DNA of 33,817 nucleotides. It comes from Nitrospirota bacterium. Its GTDB lineage: Bacteria > Nitrospirota > Nitrospiria > Nitrospirales > Nitrospiraceae. The notes beneath the pieces are model-generated. The model was given only the letters and a program-made list of their open reading frames with translations. It had not been told where the DNA came from and did no database searches. The translations under genes were made by a program, and so were the position numbers. Location of the stretch: assembly GCA_026387615.1 (NCBI GenBank), contig JAPLLI010000199.1:1-33817 (forward strand), given 5' to 3'. Shown piece after piece: positions 26,150-33,817 of the stretch (position 1 is the stretch's first letter; the number at the start of each line of letters is the position of its first letter).

Positions 26150-26776
26150 TTATCTGGCAGGCTCGGCCAGGGAGACGAACACATCCTTGTCGTCGTCATA
26201 GGCCCAGATATCGCCGGTGGGGATGGAGTAGACCCAACCATGAAGAGTCAGGGTCTTGCGCCTCAACCGCACCGCAACCGCCGGATGGGTTTTGAGGTGA
26301 TCGAGTTGAATTCTCACGTTCTCCTGAATGGTTGTGACCAGCAACTCCTCCCCTTTGAGGTCGGCGTAATTTTCCCGCACAATGCGCCGTGTCGTTTCAG
26401 CCTGAATCATCCAGCTCTTCACGGCGGGCAGGTCCTCCACGGATTCCGGATGCAGAAGCGCCCGCATCACGCCGCAATCCGTGTGGCCACAGACGACGAT
26501 ATGCTTCACCCCCAGCACGGCAACGGCATATTCGATCGTGGCCGTGCTGCCCCCCATGGTCTCCCCATAAGAGGGAACGATATTTCCGGCATTCCGCAGA
26601 ATGAAGAGTTCGCCTGGCTCAGCCTGTGTCAACAACGTGGGATCAATGCGTGAGTCCGAGCAGGTAATGAACAGCGCGCGAGGGGTTTGGCCTTCGGACA
26701 GGCGGGTGAACAATTCACGCTTCGCGCCAAAGATCTCCGCCTGAAATTTTTTAAACCCTTCAACTAATTTTTCCAT
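26150..26776 (-). CDS. Beta-class carbonic anhydrase
   Basis: This 208-residue protein interconverts CO2 and bicarbonate with a zinc ion. Ligands are visible: Cys39 and Asp41 in 'CSDSR', His98 and Cys101 in 'HTDCG'. 'GELFILRNAGNIVPSYG' is the usual conserved loop. It has no signal peptide, so it acts in the cytoplasm, where it would equilibrate bicarbonate with CO2 for carboxylases. It lies 50 bases after mpsC on the same strand, next to the DAB genes, which supports a role in inorganic-carbon supply. Confidence 0.95.
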   Translation of the reverse strand: MEKLVEGFKKFQAEIFGAKRELFTRLSEGQTPRALFITCSDSRIDPTLLTQAEPGELFILRNAGNIVPSYGETMGGSTATIEYAVAVLGVKHIVVCGHTDCGVMRALLHPESVEDLPAVKSWMIQAETTRRIVRENYADLKGEELLVTTIQENVRIQLDHLKTHPAVAVRLRRKTLTLHGWVYSIPTGDIWAYDDDKDVFVSLAEPAR

Positions 26777-26826
26777 CGCCTCTCTCCCTTATGTGGCCGA
26801 CCGCGCGACGGCGCACTGACAGCGAC

Positions 26827-30750: not shown

Positions 30751-33700
30751 ACCCCTCCGTCAACATGGAAACCAGACGCATGGAGCTCCGGGGCGTGATT
30801 CGCCTCGCGAGCGAGGTCGTCGCCCAATATTGGCCGATGCGGACCTTCGTGCATCACAATCCGCTCCATAGCCTCGAATATCTTCCGTTCGAAGAAACCG
30901 TGACACGAGGAAAACAATTCCTCGGAGGAAACGGCTATCTCCCCAGCGAGCTCTATCGCCACTATCTCCGCGCCGGTCGAATTCAAGCCCGCCATATGAA
31001 AGCGGCTGTGGCTCCGCTGGCGCGCGACGAATGGGCGACGATCGGATTGCATCGCGTGTCTCATGGCGAAGTGCTCCGCGCCTGTCTTGCCGAAGGCCTC
31101 TGCACACCGGTCGAGGAACCGTTGGATGCGCGATGGGAGCACGACCCCTACCACCAATTGGACATCTCGATCGCCGATCGCTTGGAAATGGTGTTGCCCA
31201 ATCCGAATCTGGATGAGCGCGTACGGGGCCTGGTCCACTGTAATCAAGCATCGCTCGGCCAATGGATGACGCTCTCTCATTGGTGCGATCAGGCGCTGGG
31301 CACCACCATCGTCGACCAGATCAACCGCGAACTGATCAAGTGGTGCGCGGCGTTCCTAGACGAGGGCCATGCCACCTGGGACATGCCGGGACGGGAACAG
31401 GGTCTGTACCTGGCCTGGAAAGCTCTGGCGGCCCATGAATGGTCGCCCTGCGGCATTTCCGACAGCAGACGGAAGATTGCCAACCTGCCCGACTATCCCG
31501 AAGACGCGTTGCTGGAAAGTTTAGATGCGCTCGGCATTCCGGCAAACCTCCGGCAGGATTATCTCTCCTTGCAACTTACGGCGCTGCCGGGATGGGCCGG
31601 TTTCATTAAATGGCGTTCGGAAGAGCGGGACTACGAATGGCAGCGGGCCTATCCGGTCGGGGTGGTCAAATATCTCGCGATCCGTCTCTGGTATGTGCGT
31701 GAGCTGGTTCAACACACCTGCCGGGAGGAACTCGGCATCGAGGGCACGTACCAGTCCGTGACCGACTATATGCGGCAGCATTCCAAGGAATATTTCCTGC
31801 GTCGGGAACGAGTCGCCGGACGGCTTCCCGCCATCTACGCGGAGGAAGTCGACCGGCTGCGGCATCAGCGCGCACCGGACTGGGACGGATTGTACGAGCG
31901 CTACCGGTCGGACGTCGCGCCCCGCCAGCTCCGGGTCGCCCGTCATGGCGCCGCCAAGCAGTTGCGGTCCCTCGCGCTGGCGCTGCAGCTCGATCCGACC
32001 ACGCTGATGACCACAACGCCGGACGAACTCGTTCGCCTCGTCGAGTGGATGAAAACCTTCCCCGAATCGGACCATGGACCGGTCTGGCTCAAGGCCTTCG
32101 AAGCCGGCTATCAGGAACGACTCCTCGGCGCGCTCGCCCGATCACCGGTCGCCCAGCCCCCATCCGGCGTCGAACCGAAACTCGAACGGCCTCATTCGCA
32201 ATCGGTCTTTTGCATCGATGTCCGCTCCGAACCGTTCCGGCGGCATCTCGAATCCAGCGGCGCGAACGACACCTACGGGTTCGCCGGCTTTTTCGCCGCC
32301 TTCATCCGCTACCGCGCCTGGGGCAAGGAGCATGACACGGAGCAGTTCCCCGTTATTATGCGCGCCAAGAACGAGGTGCGCGAAATCCCCCGCAGCTATC
32401 TCGATCATGTCGTCTCGAAACACGAGGCCAGGACCAGAATGGTCCATGCCGGTCATACGCTGCTGCACGATCTAAAAGAGAACGTCGTGACACCCTATGT
32501 CATGGTCGAATCGTTAGGCTGGTTTTACGGGCTTCCCATGATCGGCAAGACCTTCCTGCCTGCTCTCTACCGGCGCTGGACCAATTGGTTACAGCGCCTC
32601 TTCGTGCCAGCCATCGCAACGACCCTCACTGTCGATAAACTGGCGCCGACCGATACCGCCGAGATGTTGATGGCCGAACAGCAGGCCACCATCAGACAGG
32701 CGCTCCAAGAACGTACCGGCCTGCGCAGTTCGCAGATCACGCCAGCCCTGGTCGAGGCCTTGCGGCAATGGGCCTTGAGCGGTGAAGGTGAGCCGGAGGC
32801 AGCACTCGTCTCATCCGCAACCCAGGCCGGACTCTCGGCAGAAGCCCTCAACACCTTCGTGACTACCTTGCGGCAGCGGTACGACATCAATCAGCGATCG
32901 GCTTCCCGGCAAAAGGAACGAATCACGCGCACCGGCTTTACGCTCGACGAGCAGGTCCTGACCGTGGATACGGCCTTGCGGATGATGGGCCTCACGCGTC
33001 AGTTTGCCCGCCTCGTCCTGTTCTGCGCGCACGGCAGCACGTCGGAGAATAATCCGTTCGAATCAGCCTTGGACTGCGGCGCCTGCGGAGGCAACGAAGG
33101 CAAACCCAACGCGCGCGTGCTCGCCATGATGGCCAACAATCAAAAAGTACGGGAACGCCTGGCGAAAAGCGGCCTCGTGATTCCGTCCGACACGCACTTC
33201 CTGGCCGGGCAGGTCGACACCACAACCGATGCCGTCCGGCTCTTCGATTTGGAGGATGCGCCGCCGACCCACCGCGCGGATATCGCGCGGCTGATCCAAG
33301 ATCTCAACGAAGCCTCCCGCCTCACGAGTCTGGAGCGGTGCACCCGCTTTCCCGATCTCGCCGAACCGCTGCCGGCCCCTGAGTCGATCGCGCATGTGCG
33401 ACGGCGGAGCCTGGACTGGAGCCAGGTGCGACCGGAATGGGGCCTGTCGAGCAACGCGTCCATCGTGATCGGCCGGCGGGACTTGACCAAAGGGATCGAT
33501 CTGGGCGGGCGCGTGTTTCTGCAATCGTACGACTATCGGGATGATCCAAGCAGCCGCTTGCTCGAGGTGCTGATGACCGGGCCGCAAGTCGTGGCTCAGT
33601 GGATCAACATGGAGCATTATTTTTCCACGGTGGATAATGAGGTCTATGGCAGCGGGAGCAAGATCTACCATAATGTCGTGGGACGCTTCGGCATCATGTC

Positions 33701-33817
33701 CGTGCCCTGGAGCGACCTCCGGCTCGGGCTCGCCCTGCAGACCGTCATGAACGGCGAGGCGCCGTATCATGAGCCGATGCGGCTCCTGTCCGTGATCGAA
33801 GCGCCGCGCGAACGGAT
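30738..33817 (+). CDS. dabA: DabA (MpsB, DUF2309): CO2-hydrating subunit, 3' end beyond the window
   Basis: At least 1026 codons are present, and the frame is still open at the window edge. The zinc site of DabA is visible: Cys492 and Asp494 in 'VFCIDVRSEPFRRHLE', His765 in 'FCAHGSTSENNPFESALDCGACGGN' and Cys780 15 residues later, the same His-Cys spacing as in the characterised Halothiobacillus enzyme (His524/Cys539). It is a beta-carbonic-anhydrase-like domain attached to a peripheral membrane protein, working with DabB to accumulate bicarbonate. The start at 30738 overlaps the preceding gene by 13 bases; a second in-frame Met at 30765 is possible. Confidence 0.93.
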   Translation, partial: MESLNPSVNMETRRMELRGVIRLASEVVAQYWPMRTFVHHNPLHSLEYLPFEETVTRGKQFLGGNGYLPSELYRHYLRAGRIQARHMKAAVAPLARDEWATIGLHRVSHGEVLRACLAEGLCTPVEEPLDARWEHDPYHQLDISIADRLEMVLPNPNLDERVRGLVHCNQASLGQWMTLSHWCDQALGTTIVDQINRELIKWCAAFLDEGHATWDMPGREQGLYLAWKALAAHEWSPCGISDSRRKIANLPDYPEDALLESLDALGIPANLRQDYLSLQLTALPGWAGFIKWRSEERDYEWQRAYPVGVVKYLAIRLWYVRELVQHTCREELGIEGTYQSVTDYMRQHSKEYFLRRERVAGRLPAIYAEEVDRLRHQRAPDWDGLYERYRSDVAPRQLRVARHGAAKQLRSLALALQLDPTTLMTTTPDELVRLVEWMKTFPESDHGPVWLKAFEAGYQERLLGALARSPVAQPPSGVEPKLERPHSQSVFCIDVRSEPFRRHLESSGANDTYGFAGFFAAFIRYRAWGKEHDTEQFPVIMRAKNEVREIPRSYLDHVVSKHEARTRMVHAGHTLLHDLKENVVTPYVMVESLGWFYGLPMIGKTFLPALYRRWTNWLQRLFVPAIATTLTVDKLAPTDTAEMLMAEQQATIRQALQERTGLRSSQITPALVEALRQWALSGEGEPEAALVSSATQAGLSAEALNTFVTTLRQRYDINQRSASRQKERITRTGFTLDEQVLTVDTALRMMGLTRQFARLVLFCAHGSTSENNPFESALDCGACGGNEGKPNARVLAMMANNQKVRERLAKSGLVIPSDTHFLAGQVDTTTDAVRLFDLEDAPPTHRADIARLIQDLNEASRLTSLERCTRFPDLAEPLPAPESIAHVRRRSLDWSQVRPEWGLSSNASIVIGRRDLTKGIDLGGRVFLQSYDYRDDPSSRLLEVLMTGPQVVAQWINMEHYFSTVDNEVYGSGSKIYHNVVGRFGIMSVPWSDLRLGLALQTVMNGEAPYHEPMRLLSVIEAPRER

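Follow-up and report, generated by a model that had tools for sequence, protein, structure and literature searches.

A putative three-part DAB inorganic-carbon operon of Nitrospira, with a degenerate NuoM-like subunit and a conserved leader RNA

The window analysed here, 33,817 nucleotides long, is one complete contig (C264) of a MAG of 2.64 Mb (G000; 88.9% complete, in 281 contigs). The nearest named relatives of this genome are Nitrospira MAGs, several of them from lakes such as Baikal, and the source organism is therefore a freshwater Nitrospira. Two divergent sets of genes lie towards the end of the window, with a candidate leader RNA (R1) between them:

24621..26099, minus strand: SelO (protein adenylyltransferase), a neighbour conserved on the CA/MpsC side
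26150..26776, minus strand: beta-carbonic anhydrase (CA), 208 aa; PF00484, 158 bits
26827..27186, minus strand: MpsC, 119 aa; PF10057 (formerly DUF2294), 120 bits
27542..27642, plus strand: candidate leader RNA element R1; terminator hairpin 27593-27635
27753..29453, plus strand: DabB, NuoL-like, 566 aa; PF00361/PF00662
29453..30750, plus strand: NuoM-like protein, predicted to be a degenerate third subunit; PF00361, 37 bits; frame broken at 29614-29616
30738..33815, plus strand: DabA, first 1026 aa; PF10070, 855 bits; active-site codons 32211-32225 and 33030-33077

A sequence-only reading of this DNA had named CA, MpsC, DabB, a NuoM-like protein and DabA as a cluster. All five are Pfam members at about the places it gave, and the coordinates confirm CA and MpsC on the minus strand and the other three on the plus strand; no NCBIfam model matches MpsC or DabA. 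The plus-strand genes are tightly packed, with the start of the NuoM-like gene overlapping the DabB stop by 1 base and the DabA start overlapping the end of the NuoM-like gene by 13 bases. DabA is truncated because the window is the whole contig and the gene runs past its edge.

DabA carries the Zn ligands Cys, His and Cys together with an Asp-Arg dyad (C492/D494/R496/H765/C780). This site, which the sequence-only reading had called intact, is invariant in 24 DabAs and aligns with that of the solved DabA2 (9rd0_A). DabB keeps the NuoL-type proton-path residues R171, D174, K232, H239, H336, H340 and K344, which match those that matter in DAB2 (PMC13144422), and its TM5 Glu is replaced by Q141. 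The DAB2 complex of Halothiobacillus neapolitanus (DabA2-DabB2; PDB 9rd0; PMC13144422) likewise combines the DabA Zn site with the DabB proton-path residues, has lost the TM5 Glu, and has a Glu/Asp-bearing segment between the two CA-like halves of DabA. E591, a conserved Glu/Asp position, is a candidate counterpart of the DAB2 finger Glu444, at a level short of exact alignment. The two systems differ in the length of DabA, about 1076 aa in full-length Nitrospira relatives versus 870 aa in DAB2, and in the additional NuoM-like subunit, leader RNA, CA and MpsC found here. Our literature search returned no paper on DabA or DabB in Nitrospira.

The order SelO-CA-MpsC, divergent from DabB(-DabB)-NuoM-DabA, recurs across the family in relatives taken from whole genomes. 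Searching the genome collection with a profile of the NuoM-like protein identified 62 loci, almost all of them labelled as Nitrospirota, and wherever the contig reaches, the NuoM-like gene adjoins DabB and/or DabA and the order DabB-NuoM-DabA is kept; the arrangement is therefore far beyond chance. MpsC is present at 43 of these loci and CA at about 12, two of them partial matches only, so that CA is an optional part of the locus among relatives. The gene order, which the sequence-only reading had put forward as a check on itself, thus recurs, with CA as a part that is not fixed. SelO, which is not known to be linked to carbon uptake, occupies the CA/MpsC side at L062, L055, L045, L051, L057, L058 and others across the family, as it does in the window. 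In several Nitrospira (L037, L051, L056, L057, L058 and L066) the NuoM-like gene follows two DabB paralogues in tandem, and L057 and L058 have two MpsC genes each.

The intergenic region between MpsC and DabB spans 566 bases and is well conserved among close relatives. It contains R1, which was not seen in the sequence-only reading. The first part of R1 is a hairpin closed by a conserved GUA/UAC and bearing a conserved internal loop, and the second, directly after it, is a terminator made up of a hairpin (AAGCCA..UGGCUU) and a T-run, at a distance of 118 nt from the DabB start. The consensus structure pairs in 95.7% of cells, with double changes in 11 of 20 pairs; compensatory cells number 51, versus 10.8 in shuffles, and sliding the partners destroys the signal. 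R1 therefore has a conserved structure with compensatory changes, and its terminator stands ahead of functionally related genes. The first hairpin might also pair with the terminator to form an antiterminator, though this is weakly indicated: the candidate pairing accounts for 77% of cells and does not rise above shuffles on most measures. Many Nitrospiraceae (for example L120:2310-2390, L040, L045 and L050) also have, immediately before R1, a long and imperfect inverted repeat of the GATGGTGCC..GGACC..CCATC type, which could be an extra RNA hairpin or an operator.

Searches with the R1 model return a single copy in the source genome (E 1.3e-15), and 46 of 61 relatives also give matches. Across 296 Nitrospirota genomes there are 101 copies in 89 genomes. 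All 89 are among the 127 genomes with DabA, versus none of the 169 without it, in a sample whose genomes are related and not phylogenetically independent, which makes the p-value look stronger than it is; the other 38 DabA genomes lack R1 at the threshold used. Outside this sample, a DabA-less relative (G013) has R1 ahead of a SulP gene. The 101 copies lie ahead of DAB genes (about 75), SulP (13, one a weak match) and MrpE (11); one further copy lies at a contig end, and one is unclassified. Of the targets, about 50 were identified by inspecting the first gene itself, and the others were deduced from spacing to DabA (about 0.1, 3.1 or 5.0 kb). A single-contig genome (G041) has three copies, one each before DabA, SulP and MrpE. 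The unclassified copy is at L231 (G044:C81:32903-33001). At two loci a second copy (L092:1934-2039 and L243:1517-1617) precedes a 797-aa gene that has no Pfam match and lies upstream of DabB. We rejected the idea that R1 is a general terminator repeat, as most genomes have one copy, nearly always beside uptake genes.

The terminator and the kind of genes that follow it lead us to infer that R1 is a transcription attenuator, and it is plausible that the regulation supposed in the sequence-only reading is exerted through this RNA. Like members of known riboswitch and leader-RNA families, R1 is a structured leader with a terminator ahead of related transport genes; unlike them, it matches no family in Rfam 15, even at permissive thresholds. 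No published report of it was found in the literature searched. What R1 responds to is a separate question. It may answer Na+, pH or some other signal, or bind a protein, rather than report inorganic carbon. We consider this a serious contender, at somewhat less than even odds: some copies precede SulP genes or operons for Mrp Na+/H+ antiporters, which are possibly regulated by Na+ or pH, and the hairpin, with its internal loop, might serve for protein binding. DAB genes, however, are the most numerous targets, and their relative DAB2 is reported to be sodium-independent (PMC13144422); Rfam offers no Na+ riboswitch or other match. As a more tentative proposal, R1 could be a cis-regulatory RNA of a new class in Nitrospirota, responsive to inorganic-carbon status, perhaps by direct sensing of HCO3- or CO2, and exerting joint control over the DAB, SulP and Mrp operons. 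If this is true, nitrifiers would have their first known RNA regulon for carbon uptake, and R1 might even be the first riboswitch for bicarbonate or CO2. That R1 marks inorganic-carbon uptake operons is to us a more surprising result than the third subunit.

On the other strand, the beta-CA has no obvious signal peptide, and its closest solved relative is 5swc. No other PF00484 member turned up in the genome, nor, at 88.9% completeness, any alpha-CA. The sequence-only reading had singled out a cytoplasmic CA beside DAB as notable, since it would dissipate a bicarbonate pool unless regulated or localised, an apparent paradox. Concern over the loss of such a pool stems from carboxysome systems and heterotrophs, and B. 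subtilis is among the organisms in which a CA beside MpsAB is already on record (PMC8552792). Nitrospira fix carbon through the reductive TCA cycle (PMC8115632), which takes mostly CO2 and needs HCO3- too (PMC10880623). ATP-citrate lyase is present in the genome, and RuBisCO was looked for and not detected at the same completeness. Since both CO2 and HCO3- are then needed, a cytoplasmic CA fits here and the paradox fades.

MpsC, the only PF10057 copy found in the genome, shows no transmembrane helix in sequence or model, and a fold search gave no confident relative. In Staphylococcus aureus, as here, MpsC adjoins DabB/DabA homologues (MpsABC); there, mpsC was judged not functional and, outside staphylococci, not collocated (PMC6689103). 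In contrast, the gene is collocated across Nitrospirota, so that the published view fails in this phylum and the question of MpsC is reopened. It also adjoins a second, different type of DabA in another family, and in other classes it lies upstream of DAB on the same strand. The second DabA type of family f3 (L059, L036 and L042) is followed by an Mrp-like operon with MrpE first; the Mrp proteins may therefore be its membrane partner. R1 stands ahead of this Mrp-like operon in L059 and L042. CA and MpsC might be neighbours of DAB by history only, with no part in its function. Deletion of mpsC in S. aureus had no effect (PMC6689103) and CA is missing from most loci, as this would predict, but MpsC keeps its place by DAB across several families, whichever strand it is on and whichever of two DabA types accompanies it, and we regard an accident of history as unlikely.

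The frame of the NuoM-like gene is broken in the window, a feature that the sequence-only reading missed. One G is missing from the G-run at 29614-29616 relative to four close relatives, in which the extra base leaves the frame open. A programmed frameshift was rejected, as relatives with one base more read straight through. The gene could be truly dead in this organism, with the operon working as a two-part DAB like DAB2, and related operons with a long DabA and no third gene do exist. Against this, the missing base belongs to a G-run and the MAG is fragmented (281 contigs), a setting in which assembly errors are common, and the remainder of the gene is 91-97% identical to the two nearest relatives with no other stop. 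The loss of the gene is thus improbable, and the missing G may be an assembly error rather than a mutation.

The NuoM-like protein (432 aa) aligns with E. coli NuoM from TM7 onward. Its AlphaFold model (pLDDT 79.5, pTM 0.84) gives a TM-score of about 0.8 against NuoM, ND4 and NdhD. We followed the proton-path positions through about 60 separate NuoM-like proteins and 8 fusions with DabB. K234, K265, H322, H348 and E407 are replaced in almost every homologue, mostly by hydrophobic residues (K234 and K265 by L, H322 mostly by F, H348 by V/I/L and E407 by F/L/I), so that the TM7 Lys, TM8 Lys and TM12 Glu/Lys of proton-translocating NuoM and MrpD are lacking. In the same alignment, the genome's own NuoM (L135) keeps K234 and H322. 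The N-terminal half is not recognisable in the separate forms and is missing in the fused ones. Because the proton-path residues are lost across the family, the claim of a second working antiporter subunit is not supported, and the protein is, as judged from these residues, most likely a degenerate third subunit rather than an extra pump. A working second ion-translocating subunit, modelled on the duplicated NuoM of the Nitrospira 2M complex I or on NdhD3 beside NdhF3 in the cyanobacterial NDH-1MS, would use more ions per CO2 hydrated and could draw on the NuoM/NdhD fold, the place in the operon and the conserved His (H241) and Lys (profile position 236) that remain, but with the TM7 Lys, the TM8 Lys, the TM12 Glu and two of the three channel His replaced in nearly all homologues and no recognisable N-terminal half, it is very improbable.

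That the additional antiporter-like part belongs with DAB, as the sequence-only reading held, is borne out by the fusions. In families f5, f6, f9, f19 and f21, DabB and the NuoM-like part form one protein of 873-913 aa (570 aa in L184, where it is cut by the contig end), in which the NuoM part scores 210-286 bits and has lost the same residues. A DabA tree gathers the fused forms into one group (99) and likewise keeps the main third-subunit group together (99). The f3 forms lie apart from the latter, so a single origin of the third subunit is no more than possible.

A third membrane protein encoded between DabB and DabA is also found in the three-subunit DAB1-type DAC (hneap_0907-0909). For this comparison, a locus on a Nitrobacter hamburgensis plasmid stood in for hneap_0908. 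The 253-aa "hypothetical protein" in its DabB/DabA gap can be aligned over its whole length to the C-terminal half of the NuoM-like profile at 27.6 bits, above the maximum of residue shuffles (6.5) and, by a narrow margin, that of 25-aa block shuffles (25.9). Judged from this Nitrobacter protein, the third protein of DAB1-type complexes may be a reduced NuoM relative; the Nitrospira subunit is longer, at 432 aa, and recognisably NuoM-like. The Nitrobacter plasmid 1 (L144; NC_007959.1) has two tandem sets of DabB, small protein and DabA, with a P-II gene after the first. In the cyanobacterial NDH-1MS (NdhD3/NdhF3/CupA), as here, NuoL-like and NuoM-like membrane subunits accompany a CO2-hydrating subunit. 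The Nitrospira locus differs in that no other NDH subunits are adjacent, the NuoM-like part has no proton path, and the hydrating subunit is DabA rather than CupA.

Considered together, these data favour a reading, to which we give a probability of about two in three, in which the locus is a three-part DAB (DAC) inorganic-carbon operon with a non-conducting third subunit, CA and MpsC alongside and R1 as attenuator; the function is deduced from sequence comparison. As in DAB2, protons entering through DabB would power DabA to hydrate CO2 to HCO3- in one direction only. The NuoM-like protein would be a non-conducting structural subunit packed on DabB, a placement suggested by the single protein that the two form in other Nitrospirota. 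CA, where present, would re-equilibrate HCO3- and CO2 and feed the reductive TCA carboxylases that use one or the other, MpsC would be accessory, and attenuation by the leader RNA would allow joint expression of the DAB, SulP and Mrp operons under a shortage of inorganic carbon.

What is new here is the putative degenerate NuoM-like third subunit and R1, a previously undescribed candidate leader RNA ahead of uptake genes phylum-wide. Nitrification in lakes, soils and treatment plants is driven by Nitrospira, whose means of acquiring inorganic carbon are poorly known. The locus provides a testable third DAB subunit and a hint at where such a subunit came from, and R1 may report the inorganic-carbon level of the cell.

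No DabA relatives were found in the viral contigs searched. The only match clearly labelled as lying outside Nitrospirota is L126, from a Candidatus Obscuribacterales MAG, which has DabB-NuoM-DabA at 42-49% identity and reflects either gene transfer or contamination. Elsewhere in the source genome, an open frame of ~880 aa (G000:C117; L136 and L142) matches NuoM twice and may be a fusion of NuoM-NuoN type within a complex I locus.
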